DNA from: Planctomycetota bacterium
GTDB lineage: Bacteria > Planctomycetota > Phycisphaerae > Phycisphaerales > UBA1924
Length of the DNA stretch: 44,633 nucleotides
Assembly (NCBI GenBank): GCA_018242645.1
Contig: JAFEBN010000005.1
Span: forward strand, 1 to 44,633
Direction: 5' to 3'
Notes under the pieces: generated by a model
Database searches by the model: none
Told to the model about the DNA's origin: nothing
What the model saw: the letters and a program-made list of their open reading frames with translations, nothing else
In this document: positions 13,986-31,625 of the stretch, one piece after another
How the letters are laid out: the number at the start of each line of letters is the position of its first letter
How positions within the stretch are numbered: the first letter of the stretch is position 1
Made by a program: the position numbers and the translations under genes

Positions 13986-14571
13986 TGAAGGCCCCGCATG
14001 ACCCGTCAGGCTCCGTAGCAAGCGCTCCGCCCGCGGCCGTCGTGGCCTGTTCAATAGCCATCGAGCGCGATCTCCACAACTCCAATCGGCACCCCGATCA
14101 AAGCCGTGCCGGCGGGGGAGCCCCACAGATGCTCAGATCGGCCTCACCGTTCGGGTTGAACCACCGCAGGTCTCTGCCTCCGCGTTCGTGCTCCAGATTG
14201 GTAGGCATGCCGGAGCGCGTGACGGATCTAATGTTCCCCAACCGTCCGCATCCTCGTCCGTGATACCGGCGGTGTCGTCCTTGTTCTTGATCCGCCGCGA
14301 GTCGCCGCAGAGAAATACGATCAAGGGGTTCGCGCACACGATCACAGGAATGTCGGGGTAGGCAAGGCTCAAGGGGACGAGCGCCTGGTCTCGCGCGCTC
14401 TACGACTGGGCAGGTGTCGGATTGCCGTCGGCATCCTGCCGATGAGCAGCAAGTACGGCGGCGCGGATTCAACAACTCGAAACTGCAATCGCCGTGGTTA
14501 CGGGCCGCCCTGCGTCCGCGCGACGCCATCCGGGATCCTGCACCGGCGGGCCTGGCCGAGGCCGCAGCGAA
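13986..14571. other. Gap with possible gene remnant
   Basis: No intact gene is supported. On the minus strand two short stretches read like real protein but in different frames: one at about 14230-14372 (YPDIPVIVCANPLIVFLCGD) and one at about 14105-14225 (TNLEHERGGRDLRWFNPNGE). Together they look like the decayed or frameshifted end of an unknown gene. The rest (14373-14571) shows nothing recognisable. Confidence 0.4.
14101..14372 (-). pseudogene. Frameshifted remnant of an unknown protein
   Basis: Reading the minus strand from 14372, a plausible protein (SLAYPDIPVIVCANPLIVFL...) continues to about residue 48 (ITDEDADGWG) and then appears to pass into a second frame (RSGMPTNLEHERGGRDLRWF...DLSICG) ending near 14101. 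The switch of frame near 14225-14240 suggests a single indel. I do not recognise the family. The upstream half is missing. Confidence 0.3.
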
Positions 14572-15339
14572 TCACGGTTTGCCCGCGACCGAGGCCCCTT
14601 CCAGCTTCACGGCCATCGGGAAGAGGATGCTGTTCTCCTTGTGCACGTGCGCGTGCGTGTCGGCTTCGAGCTCCGCCAGCCCCCCGAGCATCGCCACATA
14701 GGTATTGCACGCGCCCGGCGGCGGCGTGAAGCCACCGGTTAGCGCACGCATCTTCGCGAGCGCATCGCCGGAGTGCTCGTGCTCGATCATCATCATCCGC
14801 ACCGGGTTCTCGATGCCCCTTCGGGTAGGCGCCCCCCCGCACCCGCACCCACCCCCACCGCCCCCCACACACCCGGCGCCGCCCCGGCCGGTCGCGAGCG
14901 TGCGGATCCACGGGAAGAGGACCTTCTCTTCCTTCATCATGTGCTCGGTCATCTCGCCCGCGAAGTCGGTGTAGACATCCCGCAGTTCGATCAGCGAGGG
15001 CTCGCGCCCGCCGTGCACGGCGGCGACCTTCTCCGTCAGCGCCTGCAACCGCGGCAGTTCGCGCTTGAGGTACGCATGGTGCTCCTGTTCGATGTGGTCG
15101 GCCAGGGCGCCGGCGCCCCGGACCTCCCAGTCCACCGGCGGGCCGTCCGAGCACGCGGCATCCAACGCTCGCAACTCGTCGAGCACCGCCGTCGCGCTCA
15201 GCCCCTTCTTCTCGCACGCCGCGGCGAGCGCCAATCCGCCTCCGCAGCAGTAGTCGATCCCCAGCCGCTCGAAGAGTCGAGCCCTCGAGGGCTTGTCGGT
15301 CACGATCTGTCCGATGGTCGTGCGCGGGTCGATGGTCAT
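14572..15339 (-). CDS. ric: Iron-sulfur cluster repair di-iron protein RIC/ScdA/YtfE
   Basis: Di-iron hemerythrin-like protein of 255 residues that helps restore Fe-S clusters damaged by nitric oxide or oxidants. The N-terminal DUF542-type region has the hallmark DYCCGGGLALAAAC (29-42). The hemerythrin-like four-helix domain carries the expected His/Glu ligands: DHIEQEHHAYLKRELPRL, EMTEHMMKEEKVLFPWI, MMMIEHEHSGDAL and HAHVHKENSILFP. An inserted loop at about 151-170 is almost pure glycine with Cys157, Cys165 and Cys167, unlike the usual family loop. The start ATG at 15339 fits the family; the frame is open to 15390. A promoter is visible at 15404-15431, and the gene is divergent from a MarR regulator. 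Confidence 0.9.
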   Translation of the reverse strand: MTIDPRTTIGQIVTDKPSRARLFERLGIDYCCGGGLALAAACEKKGLSATAVLDELRALDAACSDGPPVDWEVRGAGALADHIEQEHHAYLKRELPRLQALTEKVAAVHGGREPSLIELRDVYTDFAGEMTEHMMKEEKVLFPWIRTLATGRGGAGCVGGGGGGCGCGGAPTRRGIENPVRMMMIEHEHSGDALAKMRALTGGFTPPPGACNTYVAMLGGLAELEADTHAHVHKENSILFPMAVKLEGASVAGKP

Positions 15340-15403
15340 CGTGTGCGTCCGTTTCGGGGGGTGTGGGGTGCCGGGAATCGTGTGCCGCACGATCCCTCGC
15401 AGC

Positions 15404-15431
15404 AGTGTAGGATCGAGAAAGTGGACATCAA
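15404..15431 (-). promoter_or_regulatory. Sigma-70-type promoter for ric
   Basis: Reading the minus strand, TTGATG (15431-15426) and TACACT (15409-15404) are separated by 16 bp, giving a leader of roughly 60 bases before the ric ATG at 15339. I see no FNR/NNR-type TTGAT-N4-ATCAA palindrome overlapping it. Confidence 0.55.
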
Positions 15432-16828: not shown

Positions 16829-17452
16829 TCAGGATCGCACGATTCCCCGCTGTTCATGAGCCGCGGGGACATCGCCGGGCAGGTTGACGTTTCTCGCCGC
16901 TTCCGGCGCAACGGGCACGGTCAACGCTCCGATCTGCTCCAAGGCGCTGAACAGCGTGTAGTCGCTTCGCGATACTCTGGCCTCCAGGATTGGCCTGACG
17001 TGCTGCGTGTACACCGCGGCGCACGGGTGCAGGCGATCTGTGGAGGCACAGACCGCATAGGCGCTCGGATGCACTTGCGCGACCTGGAGGATATTTGCGA
17101 TCTCCACGCCGCTGAAGGAAGGCATGTCCCCCGCCAGTACGAAGATCGGACCCGGCCATTGGGTGAGGGCTGAAACGATGCCCCCCATCGGGCCGATCCC
17201 CGGGTGGAGATCCGGAATGATGCCGTCCGCCAACTGAAGGACGGCGGGATCGCAGGCCCCGACCAGTTTCACGCGACGGCCGAACACGCCCCGCAGGGCC
17301 TGAATGGGCTGTTGGACGAGCACTCGTCCCTCGCTTCCCCAAGGCTCGCGGAGTTTATCCCGACCGAAACGCTGGCTCCTCCCTCCGACGAGGACGACCG
17401 GCTGGACGCTCGTAAGGAAATCGCGCGAGACGAACGGCGTATCAGTTGTCAT
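16829..17452 (-). CDS. mobA: Molybdenum cofactor guanylyltransferase MobA
   Basis: Nucleotidyltransferase of 207 residues that adds GMP to Mo-molybdopterin, producing the guanine dinucleotide form. The nucleotide loop VVLVGGRSQRFGRDK (about 19-33) and the metal-binding AGDMPSF are diagnostic; GIGPMGGIVSAL is also conserved. It ends the minus-strand moeA-moaC-mogA-mobA operon and overlaps mogA by 11 bases. Its presence predicts a bis-MGD enzyme, which fits the NarB-type nitrate reductase at 28189-30459. Confidence 0.92.
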   Translation of the reverse strand: MTTDTPFVSRDFLTSVQPVVLVGGRSQRFGRDKLREPWGSEGRVLVQQPIQALRGVFGRRVKLVGACDPAVLQLADGIIPDLHPGIGPMGGIVSALTQWPGPIFVLAGDMPSFSGVEIANILQVAQVHPSAYAVCASTDRLHPCAAVYTQHVRPILEARVSRSDYTLFSALEQIGALTVPVAPEAARNVNLPGDVPAAHEQRGIVRS

Positions 17453-17999
17453 GGCGGACGACCTTTCCGCCCGCCGGCGTCGCGTCTGGCCGCCCGTCGT
17501 CCTGCACCTCCCCGCGCAACGTCTCCACGGCGTGAGGCAGAATGTCGAGGAGAGCTTCGAGGTTCTCGGTACTTCCTTTGAGTGAGCCGGGCAAGGTCAG
17601 GACGAGAGTTCTGCCGATCGTGCCCGCAACCCCGCGCGACAGGAATGTCCGCGGCGTTTTGGTCATGCACCGGAGACGGGCGAGTTCCATGAGCCCCGGG
17701 TGCTCGCGCTCGATGACGCTCCGAGCGGCTTCGGGCGTCACGTCGCGCGGCGCTAGACCGGTGCCGCCTGTGCTCAGAATCAGATCGATGCCGCGCTCGG
17801 GGGTGGACCAACTGACAAAGCAGGCGGCAAGCTGGTCTTGCTCGTCGGGCAGGCATCTCGCCTCGACCACTTCAGCGCCGAGGCGAGTTCGGAGCATTTC
17901 GGCGAGCGCCGGCCCCGACGTGTCTGTGGCTATGCCGCGTGAGCATCGATCGCTCACAGTCAACACAGCGGCGCGGATGGGCCGGTCGGCTTCGCTCAT
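17442..17999 (-). CDS. mogA: Molybdopterin adenylyltransferase MogA/MoaB family
   Basis: Protein of 185 residues catalysing adenylylation of molybdopterin before metal insertion. Family features: AAVLTVSDRCSRGIATDTSGP at the N-terminus, the substrate loop LILSTGGTGLAPRDVTPEA (about 90-108) and LVLTLPGSLKGSTENLEALLD near the C-terminus. It overlaps moaC upstream by 4 bases and mobA downstream by 11, so translation is coupled. The MogA/MoaB distinction is not certain from sequence alone; this is the only such gene in the cluster. Confidence 0.9.
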   Translation of the reverse strand: MSEADRPIRAAVLTVSDRCSRGIATDTSGPALAEMLRTRLGAEVVEARCLPDEQDQLAACFVSWSTPERGIDLILSTGGTGLAPRDVTPEAARSVIEREHPGLMELARLRCMTKTPRTFLSRGVAGTIGRTLVLTLPGSLKGSTENLEALLDILPHAVETLRGEVQDDGRPDATPAGGKVVRHDN

Positions 18000-18538
18000 C
18001 GCCCCTCCTCAAGAGGTACTGCGGTGTAGTCGCCGTGGCGGCCACCGCGCTTCTCGGTGACGCGGATGCCCTCGATGATCATCGCGTTGTCGATCGCCTT
18101 ACCCATGTCGATCACCGTCAGGCAGGCGATTGCTACTGCGGTCAGGGCCTCCATCTCGACACCCGTGCGGGCCTGCGTCCGGACGGTGGCGGTGACCCTG
18201 ACGCGGCCGGACTCGAGCACGGCCTCCACGTCAACCGCTTCGAGCGGCAGCGTGTGGCACAGGGGGATGAGTTCGTCGGTGCGCTTGGCGGCGAGGATTG
18301 CGGCGACCCGAGCGACATCGAGCACGGAACCCTTCTTGATCGAGTTCTCGCGGATCGCACGTTCAAGGTCCGGCGAGACCCGCACGAACCCCTCGGCGGC
18401 CGCGGTCCTCGCTGTGACCGGCTTGTCCCCGACATCCACCATCCGAGCCGCGCCGTCCGCGCCGATGTGTGAAAGACCTTCAGAATTCGCCCCAGGGGTT
18501 CTGTCATTCATGGCGTGACTCATCTCCGCACCACACAT
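17996..18538 (-). CDS. moaC: Cyclic pyranopterin monophosphate synthase MoaC
   Basis: MoaC completes the first step of molybdenum cofactor synthesis together with the radical-SAM enzyme MoaA. Diagnostic segments: LSHIGADGAARMVDVGDKPVTART near the N-terminus, KKGSVLDVARVAAILAAKRT, the LCHTLPLEAV motif and GVEMEALTAVAIACLTVIDMGKAID. About 180 residues from the ATG at 18538, which lies just behind the moeA stop with AGGCGG upstream. ATGs at 18523 and 18511 are alternatives, the latter behind a GGAG. Overlaps mogA by four bases. Confidence 0.92.
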   Translation of the reverse strand: MCGAEMSHAMNDRTPGANSEGLSHIGADGAARMVDVGDKPVTARTAAAEGFVRVSPDLERAIRENSIKKGSVLDVARVAAILAAKRTDELIPLCHTLPLEAVDVEAVLESGRVRVTATVRTQARTGVEMEALTAVAIACLTVIDMGKAIDNAMIIEGIRVTEKRGGRHGDYTAVPLEEGR

Positions 18539-18552
18539 CGTTTGACCGCCTA

Positions 18553-19890
18553 TCAAGCCCCCGCGGGCCAAGTGTAATAGGGCAGGATCGCGTTCGAGAA
18601 GCCCGGGGGTACTTCCACAAAGCCGTCGCTCATGCCCGCCGCGACGATGTCACCCGAGCCGCGGCCATCGATCAACTCCGCCTGAGGAAGGCCGTTGGCG
18701 TCAACGACCAATCGGACCAAGCGGTGCCACCACAAATCGAGCGTCCGACCGTCGGGATTCCTGACCTCAATGAGCCTCGGGAGGCACTCCGGTGGGGTTC
18801 GCTTCGCTCCAGCGCAGGCGGCAAGGACGGGCAGGACGATCCGTACACAGGTGACAAGAGCGGAGACAGGGTTGCCGGGGAGCCCGAAGATGGGAAGCGT
18901 CTCCGCGGTGTGCGGCGCCGGTCGCCGCACGAGGGCACCCAGCATCGGCTTTCCGGGTCTCTGCGGAAGTCCGTGGAAGACCACCTCAGCTCCGACCTGT
19001 TCGAGGGCAGCTCGAACGGGATCGCGGTGCCCCATCGAGATGCCGCCGGTCAGGACCACAGCATCGGCGACTTGGCACGCACGCTCCAACGCACCGCCGA
19101 GGTTCCCATCGTCACGAATGTGTGACACGCTCGGCACGTTCGCCCACGCGTGCGACGCCAAGATTGCCCGCACGGCCGGGGAGTTGCTGTTGCGGATCTG
19201 GAAGGTTGATGGCGTGTGATGCGGCTCGATGAGTTCATCACCGGTGGTGATAAGGGCGATGCGGAGGCGGGCAAAGACCGCCGGTCGAATAATCCCTACC
19301 GCTGCAAGCGTTGCCAGCCCTGCTGCCGTGATCACTTCGCCCGCGTGCGGGACGACCGTCCCCGCCGGCGCGTTCTCGCCTCGACGACGGATATGGTCTC
19401 CTCGCCTGACGCGAGCGGCCGCCGCTCGCGTCACGGAGATTGAAGTGACATCTGCCGCCCGTCCCGCCGCGTGTTCAATGACGTCCTCCCGCCGAACAAC
19501 GGTGTCGGCTCCCGCCGGGATTGCTGCGCCGGTCGCGATCCGCACCGCGACAGGCCGACGAACACCCTCGAAGGACGCTGGGGGCGGCTCGCCAATGCGA
19601 GCCTCTCCCACAACCAGCAGTGTGATCGCTTGCACGGTCTCATTCGAGCCCTCACCTGAGGGGACGGCCAAGTCAGCGGCGCAGATTGCATACCCATCCA
19701 TCGCCGAGTAGTCAAAGGCGGGGCTATCCCGGTCGGCGCGGACCTCTTCGGCAAGGATGCGGCCCGCGGCCCTATCCAACCCCACAACCTCGCTTAGTCG
19801 GGCCGAGGGTGACGGGCAAGCGAGTGCGACCAAGGCCGCTACAGCAGCCCCGGGCGAGTCGAACGCGAATGCCTGACCTCGAAAGCCCAT
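18553..19890 (-). CDS. moeA: Molybdopterin molybdenumtransferase MoeA
   Basis: Protein of 445 residues that inserts molybdate into adenylylated molybdopterin. Motifs in order: AFDYSAMDGYAIC (about 59-71), PVAVRIATGAAIPAGADTVVR, LRIALITTGDEL, VLTGGISMGHRDPV, LPIFGLPGNPVSALVT and a C-terminal domain with SGDIVAAGMSDGFVEVP. Start ATG at 19890, with AGGAG seven bases upstream; the frame is open much further but that part is antisense to moaD/moaE. First gene of the moeA-moaC-mogA-mobA operon and divergent from moaD, with only 46 bp between them. Confidence 0.93.
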   Translation of the reverse strand: MGFRGQAFAFDSPGAAVAALVALACPSPSARLSEVVGLDRAAGRILAEEVRADRDSPAFDYSAMDGYAICAADLAVPSGEGSNETVQAITLLVVGEARIGEPPPASFEGVRRPVAVRIATGAAIPAGADTVVRREDVIEHAAGRAADVTSISVTRAAAARVRRGDHIRRRGENAPAGTVVPHAGEVITAAGLATLAAVGIIRPAVFARLRIALITTGDELIEPHHTPSTFQIRNSNSPAVRAILASHAWANVPSVSHIRDDGNLGGALERACQVADAVVLTGGISMGHRDPVRAALEQVGAEVVFHGLPQRPGKPMLGALVRRPAPHTAETLPIFGLPGNPVSALVTCVRIVLPVLAACAGAKRTPPECLPRLIEVRNPDGRTLDLWWHRLVRLVVDANGLPQAELIDGRGSGDIVAAGMSDGFVEVPPGFSNAILPYYTWPAGA

Positions 19891-19924
19891 ACACGCTCCT
19901 GGTATCGCCGCCACCGCCAAACCA

Positions 19925-19930
19925 TACACT
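19925..19930 (+). promoter_or_regulatory. -10 element for leaderless moaD
   Basis: TACACT sits 6 bases before the moaD ATG at 19937, so the transcript should start at or beside the start codon. There is no Shine-Dalgarno sequence before this ATG. A matching -35 is not evident. Confidence 0.4.
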
Positions 19931-19936
19931 CCCACA

Positions 19937-20191
19937 ATGGAAGTCGAGGTGCTCCTCTTCGGTGCCGCCGCTACGCGCGAGAAATCGGACCGCGTCACCG
20001 TAGTCGTGGGCGCCGAACCGACCGTCCGGGATGTCTTGACGGCGCTCCACGAGCAGCATCCCGATCTTCGGTTCGCTCTGCCGTCCGCAGAAGCCGGCCG
20101 CCTCGCCGTGAACCAGTCTTTCGCCAGAGGGGAACATCCCATCAGAGCGGGCGACGAGGTCGCCCTCATCACGCTCGTGGGGGGTGGCTGA
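19937..20191 (+). CDS. moaD: Molybdopterin synthase small subunit MoaD
   Basis: Ubiquitin-like sulfur carrier of 84 residues ending in the essential Gly-Gly (LITLVGGG), where the thiocarboxylate is formed. The strand-loop pattern VEVLLFGAAATREKSDRVTV and PTVRDVLTALHEQHP is typical, as is RLAVNQSFARG...GDEVALITLVGGG. The ATG at 19937 has no ribosome site and follows a -10-like TACACT by six bases. moaE begins 2 bases after its stop. The pair is divergent from moeA. Confidence 0.92.
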   Translation: MEVEVLLFGAAATREKSDRVTVVVGAEPTVRDVLTALHEQHPDLRFALPSAEAGRLAVNQSFARGEHPIRAGDEVALITLVGGG

Positions 20192-20193
20192 CA

Positions 20194-20661
20194 ATGGCCC
20201 CGACGCCCCCGGTCGTCGTCGCTCGGATTGTGGACGAGCCGCTGATCCCAAGGGATGAGCGGGTAACTCTCTTCGGCGAGAATTGGACCCCCGCTCGCGA
20301 TGCTGTTGGCCCTCCACCCGGTGTTGTTGGTGCCGTGCTTCGCTTTGAGGGGATCGTGCGCCGAGGCGAGCCCAGCGATGCCCACGGCGGCGACGAACGG
20401 GAACTGCTGGCGCTCGACTACCAGACCTACGACCCGATGGCCGAGCGCGAACTTCGCGCGCTGGCCCGCCAAATCGCCGAAGAGCACGTCCTTTCGTCGC
20501 TCGTGGCGCTGCACAGCCGCGGGCGCGTAGCCGTGGGCGATGTGTCGTTCGTGTTGATTGTGGAAAGCCCGCATCGCGCCGAGGCGATCGCAGCGATGTC
20601 GGCGTTCATTGACCGGCTCAAGCAAGACGTGCCGATTTGGAAGAAGCCGGTGTGGAAATAG
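20194..20661 (+). CDS. moaE: Molybdopterin synthase large subunit MoaE
   Basis: Catalytic subunit (155 residues) that transfers sulfur from MoaD to precursor Z. Family features: GAVLRFEGIVRRGE, LALDYQTYDPMAERELRALA, SSLVALHSRGRVAVGDVSFVLIVESPHRAEA and the C-terminal active-site segment LKQDVPIWKKPVW. Translationally coupled with moaD. Its stop is only six bases from the convergent TauE-type gene. Confidence 0.93.
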   Translation: MAPTPPVVVARIVDEPLIPRDERVTLFGENWTPARDAVGPPPGVVGAVLRFEGIVRRGEPSDAHGGDERELLALDYQTYDPMAERELRALARQIAEEHVLSSLVALHSRGRVAVGDVSFVLIVESPHRAEAIAAMSAFIDRLKQDVPIWKKPVWK

Positions 20662-20667
20662 CGGCTT

Positions 20668-21412
20668 TCACGAGACCACCAGCTTCGCGCCGGCGATGAG
20701 CAGGACGACCGCGAGCAGGACATTGAGAGTGCGAGGTGTCGCTCGCCGGCTGCCGAGTGTCGCCCCGGTGATGCCTCCGGCCCCCGCGCACGCCGCGAGC
20801 AGCCACAGCGAGGTGGGTGGGGTCCACTCGGCTCGCCAGGCCGCCAAGCCCCGCGAAGGAGTTCACAAGGATAAAGAGGGACGATGTCGCGGCCGTGCGT
20901 TTGGGGTCGGCCCAGCCCATGAGCAGAATCACGGGACTCAGGAAGATGCCCCCGCCCGTGCCGGTCAGCCCCGCGAGGAAGCCCAGTCCCGAACCAACCG
21001 CCAAGGCCACCGGCATCGAAGGGGGACGCGGCGCAGACGCCGCCTTGGGGGGTCGCCATGCGACGAATGCCATGCGCACGGCCGTGAGCACAAGCACGAC
21101 GCCGATGGCAGCCTTGAGCGCCTGCTGCGGGAGTTGGACGAGGCCGCCCACGTAGGCCGCGGGGATGGAGGCAACTGCAAATGGCCAGAAGAGCGTCCAC
21201 GAGAAGTGCCCGGCACATGCGAATTGCGTGAACGCGATGACCGCCACCAGGACGTTGATCGAGAGCGCCGTCGGCCGCATGACCGCGGCTTCCACACCAA
21301 CGAGCGCCATGACGGCGAGGTATCCCGAAGCGCCGGCGTGGCCGACCGAGGCGTAAAGTGCGCCCACGATGAGGAACAACACGGCGAGGATGGCAAGGGT
21401 GTCCGCCGGCAT
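20668..21412 (-). pseudogene. TauE/SafE-type (TSUP) permease, frameshifted
   Basis: Membrane protein of the TSUP family, which moves sulfonates, sulfite or related organic anions. From the ATG at 21412 the first 190 or so residues are normal: IVGALYASVGHAGASGYLAVMAL, GFLAGLTGTGGGIFLSPVILLMGW, and LFILVNSFAGLGGLASRVDPT. After about 20822 the frame breaks into a basic, non-membrane tail. The correct C-terminus is present one frame over (SLWLLAACAGAGGITGATLG... to AGAKLVVS and a stop at 20668). The total length fits a single inserted base, most simply in the G-rich run at 20811-20822. It may be a real inactivation, a sequencing indel, or slippage. Last gene of the hemerythrin-cupin-moaA run. Confidence 0.85.
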
Positions 21413-21432
21413 CGGTGGCCTTATGAGTGGCG

Positions 21433-22587
21433 CTAACCGCCGATCGCCGACATCGGCCGCTCGGGCTGGACAAAGTCCGGTGACGTGATCCCGTGGCCGG
21501 GCTGCTTGGTCCAAGTCGCGTCGATCAAGAAGTCGGCCAGTTCCGTGTCGGTCGCACCGGCCCGCAACGGCGAACGCAGATCCCATTCGGTGGTGCTGAA
21601 CAGGCAGGGCCTGACCTTGCCGTCGGCCGTGATCCGCAGGCGGCTGCACGCCCCGCAGAAGGGGTTGCTGACGGGCGCGATGAACCCGACGCGTGCCGGC
21701 GAATCTCCGTCGAGGTCCGCGAATCGGAATGTCCGGGCCGTGCTGGATGGATCGTCGTCGCCGCACGCGATGAGCGGGAAGACACGCTCGATGGCGGCGC
21801 GGGTCTCAGCAGCGGAGACCCACTTGGAAGAATCCCAGGCGTGAGCCGAGTCAAGGGGCATGTACTCAATGAACCGCATCTCTACGCCGAAGTTGCGGGC
21901 GAGCACCGCGAGTGCGACGGCCTCGTCGTCGTTGAAACCCCGGATGAGCACAGCGTTGAGCTTGACCGGGGTGAGGCCCTCGTCCAGAGATAACTGCACA
22001 CCTTTGAGCACCTGGGCGGGGGACGACGACGATCGTGTCAGGCGAGCGAATCGATCGGGTCGGAGCGAGTCGATGCTGATAGTCAGGCGTGCCAGGCCCG
22101 CGTCCTTCCAGGCCCGCAGAGATTCGCGGCTAAGCAGAGACGCGTTAGTGATCAGGGCAATCTCGACCTTAGTCGCGACGGCGAGCCCGGCGATGATGTC
22201 GGACAGATGGGGATGCAGCGTTGGCTCGCCGCCGGTAAGGCGGACCTTTCGCACGCCGAGCGATTCTGCGATCGCGGCGGCGCGGACGATCTCGGCCACG
22301 GTCAGGAGCGCTTCGTGCGCCGCGAATCGGACATCCGGCTCCATGCAGTAGACGCAGCGGAAGTTGCAGCGGTCCGTGATGCTGATCCGCAGGTCGCGGA
22401 TCGTTCGGCCGTGGGAATCGACCATCCGACGGCCGGCACGCACGTCCGGCGGGGCGGAAGCGGGCGCTCGTGCAGGATCTTGCCGCGGGAGTGATTGGCC
22501 GACCAACTGCGGGAGAGCAATGCCGCCACCCGCCTCGGCTGGCCGGGGCACGGAAGCGGTTCTGCTGTCTTGCATCGGGGTCCGCAC
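21433..22587 (-). CDS. moaA: GTP 3',8-cyclase MoaA (radical SAM)
   Basis: Radical-SAM enzyme of 384 residues that starts molybdenum cofactor synthesis from GTP. The SAM cluster motif is CNFRCVYC, within RISITDRCNFRCVYCMEP; the second Fe-S cluster is bound by C-x2-C...C in NPFCGACSRLRITADGKVRPC. LTGGEPTLHP and the C-terminal Gly-Gly (SAIGG, required in MoaA) are present. The N-terminal 55 residues before RMVDSHGRTIRDLRIS are an unusual Pro/Ala-rich extension. Start GTG at 22587 is behind a CGGAG; ATG 22575 is an alternative. It sits in a minus-strand run after the AhpD-like gene. Confidence 0.93.
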   Translation of the reverse strand: MRTPMQDSRTASVPRPAEAGGGIALPQLVGQSLPRQDPARAPASAPPDVRAGRRMVDSHGRTIRDLRISITDRCNFRCVYCMEPDVRFAAHEALLTVAEIVRAAAIAESLGVRKVRLTGGEPTLHPHLSDIIAGLAVATKVEIALITNASLLSRESLRAWKDAGLARLTISIDSLRPDRFARLTRSSSSPAQVLKGVQLSLDEGLTPVKLNAVLIRGFNDDEAVALAVLARNFGVEMRFIEYMPLDSAHAWDSSKWVSAAETRAAIERVFPLIACGDDDPSSTARTFRFADLDGDSPARVGFIAPVSNPFCGACSRLRITADGKVRPCLFSTTEWDLRSPLRAGATDTELADFLIDATWTKQPGHGITSPDFVQPERPMSAIGG

Positions 22588-23400: not shown

Positions 23401-23951
23401 AATGCTTCCTCACTCGAACCGCTATCGGGGTCGTCCACGGACAGCTTGTGTCTCGCACGGGAACCTGGCCGCCGCTCTTCGATGAAGGTTGCCTCATGCG
23501 CCAGGGCCGCCAGCGCCTCCGGGTGGTCGCGCTGCACCTCCTCGAAGAACTCTCGTTCTTCCCAGCGGATATGGTCGTGCAGCCGCACCCCGACCTCGCG
23601 CACGAGTTCCGCGTCGCTCGCCGCCGCCTCCGGTTCGCGCTCGCACCGCTCCGCCAAACGCCGCAGGGTGGCGTGTTCATCAAGCAGCCGGTCCCGCAGT
23701 TCCGGAGAATGGACCAGCGGGAGCAGCAACCGCTCTTCGTCATCAAAGTGTGCCCGGATCTCCGACCGCCAAGCGTCCACGAACTCGGCGATCGCACGGA
23801 TGCGATCCGCACGATCCAGATCCGCGGCCTGCCGCAGGCTCCGAGCTTGGATAAGCCCGCCCATGTGCTCGCGCGACAAGGGCTGGAGCGTGGCATGACG
23901 CTTCAGGGGCGGAGTCAGAGGAACCGGTTGCTCGAAGCCGTCGTGCGCCAT
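23397..23951 (-). CDS. Hemerythrin-domain protein (minus strand)
   Basis: Protein of 184 residues with a hemerythrin-like four-helix bundle that can bind a di-iron centre: PLSREHMGGLIQAR, EIRAHFDDEERLLLPLV, LLDEHATLRRLAERCE and LHDHIRWEEREFFEEV give the expected His/Glu ligands. A charged tail follows (about 155-184). Start ATG 23951, six bases behind a -10-like TACTAT, without a ribosome site. It is transcribed divergently from the second hemerythrin gene with 18 bp between the start codons. The probable role is O2 or NO binding; no enzymatic activity can be assigned. Confidence 0.88.
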   Translation of the reverse strand: MAHDGFEQPVPLTPPLKRHATLQPLSREHMGGLIQARSLRQAADLDRADRIRAIAEFVDAWRSEIRAHFDDEERLLLPLVHSPELRDRLLDEHATLRRLAERCEREPEAAASDAELVREVGVRLHDHIRWEEREFFEEVQRDHPEALAALAHEATFIEERRPGSRARHKLSVDDPDSGSSEEAL

Positions 23952-23957
23952 CGAGTG

Positions 23958-23964
23958 ATAGTAT
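23958..23964. promoter_or_regulatory. Overlapping bidirectional -10 elements
   Basis: In the 18-bp gap between two divergent start codons, TAGTAT reads on the plus strand (23959-23964) and TACTAT on the minus strand (23963-23958). Each lies 5-6 bases from the corresponding ATG (23970 and 23951). Both mRNAs would be leaderless, and both promoters share the same base pairs. No convincing -35 is visible on either side. Confidence 0.45.
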
Positions 23965-23969
23965 TCAAC

Positions 23970-24572
23970 ATGGGCGCCTCGCTGAATATCCTCGGCCGCA
24001 CCCCCGACCACGGCTTCGACGAACCCCTCGGTCTGCTCACGGACTGCCACCGCCGGATCGAGAAGTTCCTGGAACTGCTCCAACGCATCGCCCGCGAGTA
24101 CGACGACAAGCCGCTCGACGCCCAGGCCGTCGACGCGGTGCGCACGGCCAAGCGCTACTTCGCCCACGCGGCCCCCAAGCACACCGCCGACGAGGAGGAG
24201 TCGCTCTTCCCGCGGATGAAGGCCGCGGCGGCGCGCGGGGGGGCGCACGCGCAGCCTTGCGGGGCGCTGGCGCGGCTCGAACACGACCACGAGCAGGCCG
24301 ATGCCCTGCACGCGAAGGTCGATGTGCTGCTCGAAGCGTGGCTGGACCTGCCCAGCGGCGGAATACTCCCGCCCCCCCTTCCGCCCGCGAAGGCCGCGGA
24401 ACTCACGGCGTTGCTGCACACGCTCCGCGAACTCTACCGCGGGCACATCCACACCGAAGAGGCCGAGGTCTTCCCGCTCGCTGGCACGCTGCTCACGCCG
24501 AACGAACTCACGGCGGTGGGCGAGGAGATGCGGGCGCGGCGGGGGCTGGGGCAGGGGCGTGCGGGGACGTAG
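23970..24572 (+). CDS. Hemerythrin-domain protein (plus strand)
   Basis: Protein of 200 residues with a hemerythrin-like bundle: LLTDCHRRIEKFLELLQRIA, YFAHAAPKHTADEEESLFPRM, LARLEHDHEQADALHAKVDVLL and LYRGHIHTEEAEVFPLAGTLL supply the His/Glu/Asp ligands. It differs clearly in sequence from its divergent neighbour, so it is a separate subfamily and not a recent duplicate. The start ATG at 23970 has no ribosome site and follows a -10-like TAGTAT by five bases; the frame is open far upstream because it is antisense to the other hemerythrin. Convergent with the cytochrome b561 gene. Confidence 0.88.
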   Translation: MGASLNILGRTPDHGFDEPLGLLTDCHRRIEKFLELLQRIAREYDDKPLDAQAVDAVRTAKRYFAHAAPKHTADEEESLFPRMKAAAARGGAHAQPCGALARLEHDHEQADALHAKVDVLLEAWLDLPSGGILPPPLPPAKAAELTALLHTLRELYRGHIHTEEAEVFPLAGTLLTPNELTAVGEEMRARRGLGQGRAGT

Positions 24573-24619: not shown

Positions 24620-25342
24620 TCAATCGCCATGACGCTTGCGGTGTTGGCGGTCTCCGCCGTCGTGCGCCTCGCCGAGTTGCAGACTCACCCCGAGCGCGGG
24701 GACCGCAGCCGAGCGGGTGGCCGGGTCGTATGCATTGACCAACGCGGCGGTCCACGCACCGGTGATCAGGAGGAACGCCGCCGCGGCGAGCGGGCGCGAC
24801 GATCGGATGCCCTCGGACTCCGGCACGCTCTTCCGCCCGTGGACCATGCCGGCGGTGAGGTTCTCGTGGTGTCGCAACGTGTGCACGATGACGCCCAGCA
24901 CATGCACGCCGGCGACGACAATCATCGCCGACGCGAGCACCTCGTGTACATCCTTGACCCCCTTGTTCCCGCGTCCCAGCATCACGCCCGTCACCGCCAG
25001 GCCCAGCATGAGGGCGAACATCGCGAAGATGGCGTACGCGGAACCGGGGTTGTGCCCGGCGTATTGCTCCTTGCGCCCAGTCACGACACCCTTGAGCTAC
25101 CCCGCGACGGCCCGGGGGCCGAACGCGAAGGAGCCGAACCGCGCATGGCGCGAGCCGACGAAGCCCCAAACCACGCGGAGCACGAGCATCAGCCCCAGCG
25201 CCAGCCCGATCATCCCGTGGTAGGGGAACAGCGGGCTGTCATCGCCCTGGCCCAGTGCGATTACCGCCGCAGCGATGAAACCCCCGGCGAATAGCCAGTG
25301 GAAGAGGCGTGTGGGGATGTCCCAGACGAGAGTTCGTCGCAT
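24620..25342 (-). pseudogene. Cytochrome b561-type protein interrupted by an in-frame amber codon
   Basis: Membrane di-haem cytochrome of the b561/Ni-Fe-hydrogenase b-subunit type. The first part (81 residues from ATG 25342: VWDIPTRLFHWLFAGGF, YHGMIGLALGLMLVLRVVWGFVGSRHARFG) ends at a TAG (25099-25097). The remainder continues in the same frame without further stops: LKGVVTGRKEQYAGHNPGS, then DVHEVLASAMIVVAGVHVLGVIVHTLRHHEN and a last helix. The expected residue at the TAG is Tyr (GYLKGV pattern), one base from TAC. All haem-ligand histidines are preserved. A nonsense mutation, sequencing error or read-through are all possible. GTG at 25084 could restart translation. It lies downstream of the nitrate reductase operon in the same direction. 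Confidence 0.85.
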
Positions 25343-25501: not shown

Positions 25502-26644
25502 TCACTTGCGCACGCGAGCGTTCACGCACACCGCATACCCCATCCCCGCCACCGCCAGCGCCCACGCCGCGAGGGAGACGTAGCAGAACACCGGCGGCAG
25601 CACGCCCAGGAACGGCGGCAGGTCGATGGCCGAGTCCATCCGCGCCGTCGCCACCGAGTACATCCCCAGCGGGAAGACCGCGCCGAAGTAGAGCGGGTCG
25701 TAGCGAAGCGGGAACCGCCTCACGATGTGCCGCCACACGCCCAGGATCAGCAGCATCGGAATCCACCACGTCGCCGTCGCCCAGAACAGGAGCGTCGCCC
25801 CCTTGATGAACGGGAGCAGGTCGCGCACAAGCCCCCTCGCGGCGATGCCGGAGTCTTGGCCCCCCCCATCCTTCACCGCCAGCAGCAGCGTCGCCCCCGC
25901 CAGCGTCGAGATTGCCATCGCCCCCATGTTGATCCAGTACGGCGGGGCCAGGTCCGACGGCTTGAACGGGAAGAACGTGTAGCGGTAGAAGATCAGCGCG
26001 ATGATCCATACATAGAGCATCGCTCCGCCCAGCCACATCACCAGGGCGATGAAGAGCAGCCCCTCGCTGTGGCCGTGGCCTTCGATCCCTTCCGCGCCCG
26101 CGGCCCCCGCCAACTGCCCCGCCAGCACCGCCACCGCCTGCGTCGCCACCACGCTCAGCAACCACCCGCCGCTGATCCCGTCGGCGAGCGTGGGCTTGAC
26201 GGCCTTGACCGTCAGCACCGTGAAGATGGTGTACGTCAGCACCGCCCACAGGACCGTGCCGAGGATCCATAGGCCCCACGCGAGATTCGTCATCCCCCCG
26301 ATCAGCAACGCCTGCGACCCCAGCACGCACGCGCCCGGCACCATCGTGAAGAACCCCACGCTCTTGTTGTGGTTGGAGAAGTCGGCGATGAGGCGCGGGC
26401 GGTGCCGCGTGAGGCGGATGAGCGTGAGCGCCCAGAGGGCCGCGAAGAAGACGAGGTTGAGCCAGAACATGCCGCGCGAGAGCGCGGCAAACCCCTGGAT
26501 CCACGCCGCGAGCGAGACAATCCCCGTCGCCATCACCAGCGAGAAGTACGAGGGGTGCAGGTTCGCGGCGGCACGGTCGAGCATGGACATCGGCGGCTGG
26601 GCGGGCTGGGGAGGGGGGGCTGCCGCGACGGGCGGGGTGCTCAT
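25502..26644 (-). CDS. TehA/SLAC1-type anion channel (TDT family)
   Basis: Polytopic membrane protein of 380 residues with about ten hydrophobic helices, of the tellurite-resistance/dicarboxylate transporter (TDT) family that includes TehA and the plant guard-cell anion channel SLAC1. LHPSYFSLVMATGIVSLAAW is a typical first helix. Other helices include FFTMVPGACVLGSQALLI and LLFWATATWWIPMLLILGVW. The N-terminus is a Pro-rich cytosolic stretch. Start ATG 26644 behind AGAGAGG; it overlaps the preceding small gene by four bases. As last gene of a nitrate reductase operon it is a candidate nitrate/nitrite channel. The transported ion is inferred. Confidence 0.85.
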   Translation of the reverse strand: MSTPPVAAAPPPQPAQPPMSMLDRAAANLHPSYFSLVMATGIVSLAAWIQGFAALSRGMFWLNLVFFAALWALTLIRLTRHRPRLIADFSNHNKSVGFFTMVPGACVLGSQALLIGGMTNLAWGLWILGTVLWAVLTYTIFTVLTVKAVKPTLADGISGGWLLSVVATQAVAVLAGQLAGAAGAEGIEGHGHSEGLLFIALVMWLGGAMLYVWIIALIFYRYTFFPFKPSDLAPPYWINMGAMAISTLAGATLLLAVKDGGGQDSGIAARGLVRDLLPFIKGATLLFWATATWWIPMLLILGVWRHIVRRFPLRYDPLYFGAVFPLGMYSVATARMDSAIDLPPFLGVLPPVFCYVSLAAWALAVAGMGYAVCVNARVRK

Positions 26645-26961
26645 CGCGGCCTCTCTAGCAGGTAGAGGTAGCGGAGCAGGCCAAGATTGAGCACGAGACA
26701 GACAAGGCTCGCCCCGAGCGCGGGCCACGCCACCGCGTGGTCGCCGCCGAGGAAGGCGTTCATGGTCGCGGTGAGCAGCCACAACTGCATGAGGGCGATG
26801 ATGAGCACGATGCACAGGATGCCCGTCACGATGGCCGTGCGGTTCTGCTCGGCGAGGCGCGAACGTGCGATGCCGGAGCGCGGCGGGCTCGGGGGGGCCG
26901 GTGCGGACACATCACCCGGCGCGTTCGCACAAGCCGATGGGTTGGGACGCGGCGGGGTCAT
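26641..26961 (-). CDS. Small two-helix membrane protein
   Basis: Protein of 106 residues: a Pro/Ala/Ser-rich cytosolic N-terminus (1-40), then two transmembrane helices (about 46-66, TAIVTGILCIVLIIALMQLWLL, and about 80-100, WPALGASLVCLVLNLGLLRYLY). I do not recognise a family with confidence; it may belong to a DUF found beside reductase operons. The ATG at 26961 overlaps the Rieske stop and has AGGAG upstream. Its stop overlaps the TehA/SLAC1-like start, so it is tightly co-translated. Possible role: assembly or anchoring of the reductase complex. Confidence 0.75.
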   Translation of the reverse strand: MTPPRPNPSACANAPGDVSAPAPPSPPRSGIARSRLAEQNRTAIVTGILCIVLIIALMQLWLLTATMNAFLGGDHAVAWPALGASLVCLVLNLGLLRYLYLLERPR

Positions 26962-27500
26962 ACCGTGCGCTCCTCCACGCTCGTGGCGTAGACGTTGCCG
27001 TCGCGCACCTCGAGGACGATCCGCGACAAAGGCCGACGCGGCGGCCCGGCCAGCGGGCGGCCCGTCGCCAGATCGAACGATCCGTGGTGGCACGGGCAGC
27101 GCAGACACCCCGAGGGCACATCCGGCGTTACCGGGCACGACAGGTGCGAGCACTTGTTGCTGTACGCGAGGAACTCGCGATCACCCGCGCGAACCAAGAG
27201 GCACGAGTCGTGCTCGCCTGGGTAGAAGAACAGCGCGGCCTGCCCGACGGCGATCTCATCGACGCGGGCGATGGCCTTCGGTCCCGCGCCGCCTCCTTCG
27301 CCCCGCAGCGTCTTGAGCGCGATCCACCCCTGGCCCGCGACGAACGACGCGCTGATGAGCACCATGAACTTGGTGAACTCACGGCGGGCCACAAAGTTGT
27401 CCTGCTGTGTGTCGATAGGGAAGTCCTGCCGCCACCTGGGCTGGGCGTCGCTCGGACGGCCGTTGGGCGTGTGGACACGGATGGGTGTAGGGTCTGCCAT
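26958..27500 (-). CDS. Rieske [2Fe-2S] protein with twin-arginine-type anchor
   Basis: Protein of 180 residues. The cluster-binding motifs are complete: Cys117-x-His119 and Cys135-x2-His138, with extra Cys122 and Cys137 able to form the disulfide typical of bc1/b6f-type high-potential Rieske proteins. An N-terminal segment ARREFTKFMVLISASFVAGQGW (about 38-59) resembles a twin-arginine signal anchor, which would place the cluster outside the cytoplasmic membrane. Start ATG 27500 with GGAG upstream. Part of the minus-strand reductase operon, so it may take electrons from quinol or deliver them to an external partner. Confidence 0.9.
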   Translation of the reverse strand: MADPTPIRVHTPNGRPSDAQPRWRQDFPIDTQQDNFVARREFTKFMVLISASFVAGQGWIALKTLRGEGGGAGPKAIARVDEIAVGQAALFFYPGEHDSCLLVRAGDREFLAYSNKCSHLSCPVTPDVPSGCLRCPCHHGSFDLATGRPLAGPPRRPLSRIVLEVRDGNVYATSVEERTV

Positions 27501-27533
27501 TGGGAACTCCGATCAGGCGGCGGGCGGCCGCGT

Positions 27534-28172
<639 letters not shown>

Positions 28173-28188
28173 GGCGACTCCGATAGGT

Positions 28189-30459
<2,271 letters not shown>

Positions 30460-30476
30460 GAGAATCCTTCTGTCGA

Positions 30477-31625
30477 TCAAGCCTGCTCGGCCGTCGTAGC
30501 GGGGGCCGACGCGGCCTCCATCATCTCCGCAACATCCACGATCCCGGGGCGGTCGCTCACCTCGCGGCCGCGCCCGGCCTGCCACAATCGGCCTTGCGCC
30601 AGCGCCATGCTAAGACGGCGGCAGCGCGGACAGATGTACTGGTAGTGGCCGACTGAGTCTCCCCGCACCCCCGGCATCTCGTAGGAATACCCCAGCTCGC
30701 GCTCGACCCGAATGAGGTCTTCGACATGCGCCTTCGAGGCAAACGGCTGCGCGCAGTTCCGGCACGCAGCCTGCTCGCCGGTTCTACCGGCGTCCTTGTA
30801 GAACGACACACCGAGCTGCGCCGGACGCTGGAAGATGTGGAAGAACTTGCCGAACGGCAGCCAGAGCAGCGTGAAGATCACGCACGCGGCATGGACGATC
30901 GCCAGGAAGTCGTAGGCGTACCCCTTCATCCATGTGTAGCTAGCCGTGAGCATCAGCCCGGTGATGCTCACCGCGAAGAGCAGGATGAGCGGCAGGAAGT
31001 CCTCGCTGAACTGCTGCACGGCCTCAGCGCCGCGATCGCGCATCCGCCGCCTCATCGCGATCATCACTCCCGCGATGACCAGAAACGAAGCCCACACCAG
31101 GCCGTGGAAGATCAATCCGCCGAGCACGCTCCCAATCCGGAAACTGAACGTGGGAAAACCAAAGACGTACACGCGGTATCGCTCGAAGTCGTCGGCGGGC
31201 GTCTGGAAGTGGATCCACCCGAACACCAGCGGGAAGGTGATCGCCCCCGCCAGCAGGCAGCCCCACATGATGAGCCAGTGGGCGGCCCAGCGGGTTCGAC
31301 TCCGCCGGAAGATGAAGTTATTGAACGCAAAGACGCCGACGACGCGCTTGGGCCAGGCGGCGAGGTTGGCGAGGAGCCGGTCACGCGAGAAGAACACCTG
31401 CCAGCCGCGCCGCCAGAAGAGCGCCGTCGGCGGGCGCTGCAGCCACATGGAGTAGCGGTACGTGATCCCAAACACCGCGAAGAGAGTGGCGAATGTGTAG
31501 CCAACGAGCGCGGCGTCAAAGTGGGCGAGATTGCGCGAACCGATGGCGATCAGAGCCGCCACGAGGAGTGTGGCCGCAACCCCTTGTGCACCTGCCCTGA
31601 CTGTCTCTCGATTCAAGGATGGCAT
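30477..31625 (-). CDS. NarI/HdrE-like membrane subunit with zinc-ribbon tail
   Basis: Integral membrane protein of 382 residues, first gene of the reductase operon. About six hydrophobic helices lie in residues 15-275, with His residues in helices ([46 protein letters not shown]) that could bind b-type haem, as in NarI and related quinol-oxidising subunits. The C-terminal soluble part has [10 protein letters not shown] (about 299-308) and ICPRCRR, a zinc-ribbon or rubredoxin-like site, not standard in NarI. Start ATG 31625 with GAGGTG upstream; the frame extends 12 codons further. It probably oxidises quinol and passes electrons to the ferredoxin subunit. Confidence 0.82.

Follow-up and report, generated by a model that had tools for sequence, protein, structure and literature searches.

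A six-gene planctomycete locus predicted to encode a membrane-spanning quinol:nitrate oxidoreductase with a Rieske subunit

In NarGHI, a NarI di-haem subunit is joined by a four-cluster iron-sulphur subunit and a cytoplasmic molybdenum site. Comparable features, with the di-haem membrane subunit and the cytoplasmic site as predictions, occur in six consecutive genes of a 44,633-nucleotide stretch of DNA from a Planctomycetota bacterium (GenBank assembly GCA_018242645.1, contig JAFEBN010000005.1, positions 1 to 44,633; this whole stretch is called the window below). The genes, designated I, G, H, R, D and S, all lie on the minus strand within positions 25502-31625. They differ from NarGHI in that G and H are not NarG and NarH, no NarJ gene is among the six, and the locus adds a Rieske protein (R) and a DUF6755 protein (D), while I is extended by a Cys4 tail and by a helix at its N-terminus. 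The closest relatives of the catalytic subunit G are the NasC/NarB enzymes of Bacillota, Actinomycetota and Deinococcota, which share its DYNGR-CM motif, its lack of an export signal and a nearby NarK gene; four reference stretches encoding NasC differ in carrying nirB and in lacking, at E <= 0.01, any counterpart of I, H or D, with a weak match of R to a NirD-like gene in one of them. According to one study (PMC3475470), the Rieske protein NasG of Paracoccus relays electrons from NasB to NasC, and nasC of Bacillus bataviensis is linked with a Rieske-type gene.

Haloarchaeal pNar (the nar cluster of Haloferax mediterranei) is similar in another way. As described in two papers (PMC2483277, PMC7754194), NarB of this cluster is a Rieske protein and NarC a di-haem cytochrome b, and a Q-cycle has been proposed; NarB went undetected after purification. 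The same papers place its catalytic site, which is NarG-type, outside the membrane and describe NarC as no homologue of NarI, whereas G has no visible export signal and is not NarG-type. Because a nitrate reductase is already accompanied by a Rieske protein and a di-haem cytochrome b in these operons, the planctomycete complex is not wholly new in kind; an earlier sequence-only reading of the window, which had noted that NarGHI lacks a Rieske protein, overlooked the haloarchaeal clusters that encode one.

AioAB likewise combines a molybdenum enzyme with a Rieske partner, and AioB is the closest solved fold to R, the complex of AioB with its acceptor cytochrome c552 also being among the matches. 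G is not AioA, however (133 bits against a model cut-off of 359), and we know of no counterpart of I or H in AioAB. The bc1 and b6f complexes share with R a twin-arginine Rieske protein with a disulphide cysteine pair; they differ in that no bc-type cytochrome b is among the six genes and in residues near the cluster, where Ser and Tyr are typical of bc1 Rieske proteins and R has an invariant Gly and a near-invariant Phe. The literature searched, which covered few subscription journals, yielded no publication on these genes as a set.

We propose that the six genes probably encode a membrane-spanning quinol:nitrate oxidoreductase with its molybdenum site predicted in the cytoplasm, its Rieske centre predicted in the periplasm and an associated predicted nitrate/nitrite channel, and that its subunit make-up most likely sets it apart from Nar, Nap and Nas. 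The proposal draws on the gene order, family likenesses, metal ligands, catalytic clade, SLAC1/NarK exchange and NarK-I fusions that sequence and comparison reveal.

Gene content and conserved order

The host of the window is a 3.40 Mb metagenome-assembled genome (MAG), 83% complete. Adjacent genes overlap by 4 bp at R/D and at D/S (coordinates in Table 1). Domain searches identified Molybdopterin, Molydop_binding and Fe4S4 in G, Fer4_11 in H, Rieske in R (42 bits), DUF6755 in D (99 bits) and SLAC1 in S (166 bits). I had no Pfam match at E <= 0.01 and gave weak TcuB/QmoC matches in a protein-family scan; a single-sequence search of the PDB with S returned nothing at E <= 0.001. All six proteins are identical to those on contig L003, which is listed under the name 'Phycisphaerae bacterium isolate new MAG-57'. 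The gene coordinates and domain calls agree with the sequence-only reading, which had described six consecutive minus-strand genes of these kinds, the last three overlapping by 4 bp, and had recognised a TehA/SLAC1-type channel and a four-cluster ferredoxin subunit, the latter agreeing also with the 17 cysteines of H that are invariant in 87 of 87 relatives. Its two-helix protein is present and can now be assigned to DUF6755.

Relatives were collected with G alone, and the best 80 of 436 genome loci encoding one were compared (G identity 72-96%, L003 aside). The order I-G-H-R-D is conserved: all five genes are present in 68 of these loci, and 11 of the 12 incomplete loci are cut by a contig end. 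The exception, L012, has room for the set yet no H, R or D nearby; in L011 the H-R-D-S block is inverted. Since the order is kept in loci selected by G alone, the clustering of I-G-H-R-D is not due to chance. Synteny in relatives had been named beforehand as a check on the sequence-only reading, and it proved strongly conserved.

Adding four Deinococcus plasmids, which carry the same set with G at 56-57% identity, and nine further planctomycete loci gave 93 loci with G; L129 and L130 repeat L075 and L082 and are included in this count. R is present in 86 of the 93; of the seven loci without it, six are cut and the other is L012. D was found by tblastn in 80. Four loci lack such a match although they have room for the gene: in L125 and L128 another search gave a DUF6755 match, and in L012 and L122 none was seen. 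By recorded taxonomy the 80 loci comprise Planctomycetota (34), Acidobacteriota (20), Chloroflexota (12), Myxococcota (8), Gemmatimonadota (2), a single locus from each of Armatimonadota, Latescibacterota and Verrucomicrobiota, and one without an assignment; the five-gene set is recorded under nine phyla. The carriers include isolates of Herpetosiphon, Sorangium and Lacipirellula, but most of the 80 loci come from MAGs, some possibly misbinned. G is near-identical, for example, in a Vicinamibacteria MAG (L074, 93%) and a 'Leptolyngbya' MAG (P0027, 92%), and because such similar proteins stand under different taxa these two contigs may be misbinned.

Within 294 Planctomycetota genomes, ten matches to G of at least 59% identity occur in nine genomes (that in genome G067 is partial), and the other matches among those listed reach at most 38%. 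Eight of the 294 have a DUF6755 protein over the cut-off, seven of which carry G at 59% identity or more; in the eighth (G280), R adjoins D on a 4.3 kb contig. Genomes G040 and G067 have G without a DUF6755 match, the G067 contig ending within G.

Table 1. Coordinates and assignments of the six genes, of related gene fusions and of nearby cofactor genes (window positions unless a locus is named)
Feature	Position	Strand	Description
I	30477..31625	-	382 amino acids; predicted di-haem b membrane subunit, NarI-like fold (six helices), C-terminal Cys4 domain
G	28189..30459	-	756 amino acids; molybdenum catalytic subunit, NasC-related nitrate reductase, N-terminal 4Fe-4S motif
H	27534..28172	-	212 amino acids; four-cluster 4Fe-4S subunit
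R	26958..27500	-	180 amino acids; membrane-anchored Rieske protein, twin-arginine motif, extra bc1/AioB-type Cys pair
D	26641..26961	-	106 amino acids; two-helix membrane protein (DUF6755), small subunit with a predicted structural role
S	25502..26644	-	380 amino acids; SLAC1/TehA-type channel, predicted nitrate/nitrite channel
NarK-I in-frame fusion	L062:5673-7982		single open frame
NarK-I in-frame fusion	L126:3068-5281		single open frame
Molybdenum cofactor genes near the operon	16829..22425	-	MoaC and MoaA over curated cut-offs; MobA-like and MoaB/MogA-like below

The catalytic subunit and its link to nitrate

G scored best against the NasC model NF047855, with 776 bits, below the cut-off of 1100 (the G protein of L122 scored 785). 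Its scores also fell below the cut-offs of the models for Fdh-alpha (557 bits; cut-off 666), haloarchaeal NasA (351 bits), NapA (about 247-258 bits; 931) and NarG (TIGR01580, 59.9 bits; 1084), and H reached 38.3 bits against the NarH model TIGR01660 (cut-off 524). No export signal was seen on G or H, and none of the twin-arginine type at the N-terminus of G. The active-site motif of G reads DYNGRLCM. The Met of its Cys-Met pair is present in 21 of the 21 operon G rows shown; the pair is as in NapA and Nas, whereas formate dehydrogenase rows have Cys/Sec-His or Cys-Gln.

The 21 operon G proteins (those of L090 and L140 being identical) formed a single clade with support 100/100 in a maximum-likelihood tree of 46 proteins, from which E. 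coli NarG and L089 were left out; this clade is separate from the formate dehydrogenase, Nap, Aio and Phs rows. The sister group consists of NasC types from Paenibacillus, Mycobacterium, Deinococcus grandis and Streptantibioticus, with joint support 99/95. G thus groups with nitrate reductases and not with formate, thiosulphate or arsenite enzymes, the outcome on which the initial assignment had been made to depend. That assignment, a NarB/NasA-type subunit without an export signal, holds as to the signal and is refined as to the family, the NasC type being closest.

A second line of evidence comes from the slot after D, which mostly holds S and elsewhere a NarK-family transporter gene (K); a few loci carry S or K upstream instead, or on the opposite strand. 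S is present in 52 of the 93 loci and K in 25, the two never occurring together within the distance searched; of the 16 loci that lack both, 11 are cut. Two of the K calls are uncertain: L128 (25% identity, other strand, without a NarK-model score) and L055 (other strand, NarK-like). A tree of 74 G proteins, from which the two repeat loci were dropped, implies at least ten changes between S and K, eight of them forced by supported branches. NarK is moreover fused in frame to I in two loci (Table 1). The best structure matches of the K protein of L009 and of the L062 fusion are NarK/NarU. Against the NarK model TIGR00886, nine K proteins and the two fusions scored 200-285 bits, all 11 below the cut-off of 311.7; this model was the top match in 10 of the 11 scanned, with NarU narrowly ahead in one. 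The repeated SLAC1/NarK exchange and the fusion of NarK to I tie the complex to nitrate and to an active site on the cytoplasmic side. A NarK gene is found near the NasC-type references as well, so that K marks nitrate and not respiration as such. One paper reports that plant SLAC1/SLAH3 transport nitrate (PMC3509319), with which a role of S as a nitrate/nitrite channel fits; we infer such a role for S.

Enzymes of this molybdenum family can be promiscuous and reversible, as is generally known, and the complex might accordingly run in reverse as a nitrite oxidase or use another oxyanion such as chlorate or selenate. We regard this as highly improbable in view of the repeated NarK linkage, the two NarK-I fusions, the NrfHA or NirB genes found nearby (see below) and the position of the G clade beside NasC.

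The membrane and Rieske subunits and a predicted electron path

The predicted fold of I resembles NarI (VIA-align); a Foldseek search with I returned chiefly G-protein-coupled receptor chains, with NarI at rank 31. I has four conserved histidines (H116, H174, H245 and H263) and is predicted from them to bind two haems, and its loops follow a positive-inside pattern. The cysteines of its tail (C288, C291, C332 and C335) are invariant in 77 of 77 aligned relatives. In R, the twin-arginine pair is kept in 83 and 84 of 84 relatives, and the Rieske ligands together with the extra cysteine pair (C117, H119, C122, C135, C137 and H138) in all 84; the motif and the charge distribution place R outside the membrane by prediction. 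These features sustain the descriptions first given of a NarI-like membrane protein with a Cys4 tail and of a bc1-type Rieske protein with a twin-arginine-like anchor. The membrane-spanning layout put forward at the same time is likewise supported by prediction, through the NarI-like fold and positive-inside loops of I, the absence of an export signal on G and H, the anchor of R, and NarK genes that adjoin the set or are fused to it. R was also considered as a part of a bc1 complex, and this was rejected; the only other Rieske match in the window genome (83% complete) is the C-terminal domain of a protein that by eye is a flavin adenine dinucleotide oxidoreductase.

In the proposed oxidoreductase, the predicted site of quinol oxidation is the outer face of I, the di-haem subunit, next to R. 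Electrons are predicted to pass from the outer haem (H174/H245) to the inner haem (H116/H263), through the four 4Fe-4S clusters of H, and then to the 4Fe-4S cluster and molybdenum site of G, where nitrate would be reduced to nitrite. The quinol protons would be released outside, and energy would therefore be conserved at least as by the NarGHI loop. R may accept the first quinol electron and pass it to the outer haem, which is the least certain step; the Gly and Phe that stand where bc1 Rieske proteins have Ser and Tyr suggest a lower potential for R, suited to menaquinol. D would link R with I, and S, or NarK in its place, would import nitrate and release nitrite. According to the host, the nitrite would then be passed to NrfA, to NirB or to some other nitrite reductase.

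Both the place of the Rieske centre in this path and any energy conservation beyond that of NarGHI are thus put forward conditionally. R could instead be a side port to a periplasmic cytochrome c or another complex, while I and H by themselves carry the electrons of quinol to nitrate in the manner of NarGHI. It is general knowledge that a NarI-type di-haem subunit is enough for quinol oxidation in NarGHI; the predicted position of R outside the membrane and the likeness to AioB, whose complex with an acceptor cytochrome c552 is known, also speak for a side port. On the other hand, R is nearly always present (86 of 93 loci), and the genes called within 1.5 kb of the set in the 80 loci include no recurrent cytochrome c gene; CxxCH occurs there only in L015, in NrfH of L041 and as chance motifs in H. 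We consider a side port possible but rather unlikely. The L015 protein (L015:11000-12328, between H and R) is predicted to be periplasmic, with one CxxCH and no Pfam match, and has relatives in L019, L024 and L032.

A more far-reaching version of the quinol:nitrate proposal is that the locus represents a further respiratory class, spread over nine phyla and built on an assimilatory-type G, in which R and the NarI-fold subunit I split the quinol electrons in a Q-cycle-like manner and conserve more energy than NarGHI, with the SLAC1/TehA channel as nitrate/nitrite pore. We hold this version, taken whole, to be doubtful.

Fate of nitrite and neighbouring genes

The sequence-only reading had suggested a possible respiratory role for the complex. 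In Lacipirellula limnantheis (L041) the order I-G-H-R-D-NarK-NrfH-NrfA lies on one strand, with NrfH over its cut-off followed by an NrfA-like protein; no relative of this NrfA was found at E <= 1e-6 in the other loci examined. A survey of 45 operon genomes, drawn from the 80 loci, found a strong NrfA match (at least 298 bits) in 19, NirK over the cut-off in four and a NarG match in 11. A NapA match at E <= 1e-100 was present in five of 46 genomes (the 45 and the window genome), including that of L003, under the cut-off, and 31 of the 45 had neither a NarG match (E <= 1e-50) nor a NapA match (E <= 1e-100). In the seven genomes of the set nearest to the window's, all Phycisphaerales-like (L003-L005 and L008-L011), NrfA was found in five and the siroheme nitrite reductase domain NIR_SIR in none at E <= 1e-10; the near loci L006, L007, L012, L013, L020, L035, L044 and L074 lie outside the 45-genome set. 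Neither NrfA nor NIR_SIR was found in the 83%-complete window genome. RIC repair proteins, which are linked to nitric oxide stress, are encoded near 13 of 94 loci. FNR-type boxes scoring at least 9 of 10 were present upstream of I in 2 of 83 cases, against 0.4 in shuffles, too few to rest an argument on.

Other observations point towards assimilatory use. NIR_SIR is present in 33 of the 45 operon genomes, and tblastn placed NirB near the set in four of the 94 loci (L066, L122 and L128, with a weaker match in L125), in all of which the SLAC1 gene is absent. Together with the sister relationship of G to four NasC types, each of them encoded on a stretch that also carries nirB, and with the assimilatory names that databases often give to relatives of G, they would suit an assimilatory nitrate reductase that draws on quinol in place of reduced nicotinamide adenine dinucleotide or ferredoxin and hands nitrite to a siroheme nitrite reductase for biosynthesis. 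NirB is however confined to those four loci and was not found in the loci nearest the window's, NIR_SIR is missing from the window genome and its seven nearest relatives in the survey, NrfHA directly follows the set in L041, and the RIC-type genes recur; we therefore judge a general assimilatory function unlikely. Our reading is that use is mainly dissimilatory in the lineage of the window and that assimilatory or mixed use is possible elsewhere. The respiratory role first suggested stands to that extent, through NrfHA in one locus and the lack of NIR_SIR in the window's lineage, while the nirB and NIR_SIR counts leave room for assimilation.

If the quinol:nitrate proposal is correct, nitrate respiration may extend to many bacteria of soil, freshwater and wastewater whose enzyme is often named 'assimilatory', and surveys that count only narG and napA would miss them. 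DUF6755 would gain a function and the bacterial SLAC1/TehA channel a likely physiological ion, and the role of the Rieske centre in nitrate reduction would become directly testable in cultured strains.

Several neighbouring genes were recorded in addition. The window itself encodes an iron-sulphur repair protein of the RIC type (14572-15339, minus strand), which scores above the curated cut-off and is a sign of nitrosative stress, and L050:1490-3712 (minus strand) appears by eye to be a quinol-type nitric oxide reductase, with no NCBIfam match at E <= 1e-8. Near the operon of L061, positions 14282-15409 (minus strand) encode an iron-sulphur subunit of the type II dimethyl sulphoxide reductase family (268 of 481 bits against TIGR03478, 185 of 524 against NarH), with a relative in L045. 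Just downstream of S in the window, two adjacent frames (24620-25342, minus strand) match halves of one cytochrome b561 (PF01292), and because each matches only half, this gene seems broken or misassembled. Beyond it lies a convergent gene (about 23496-24572, plus strand), whose relative in L009 is hemerythrin-like (PF01814), and further on a cupin gene.

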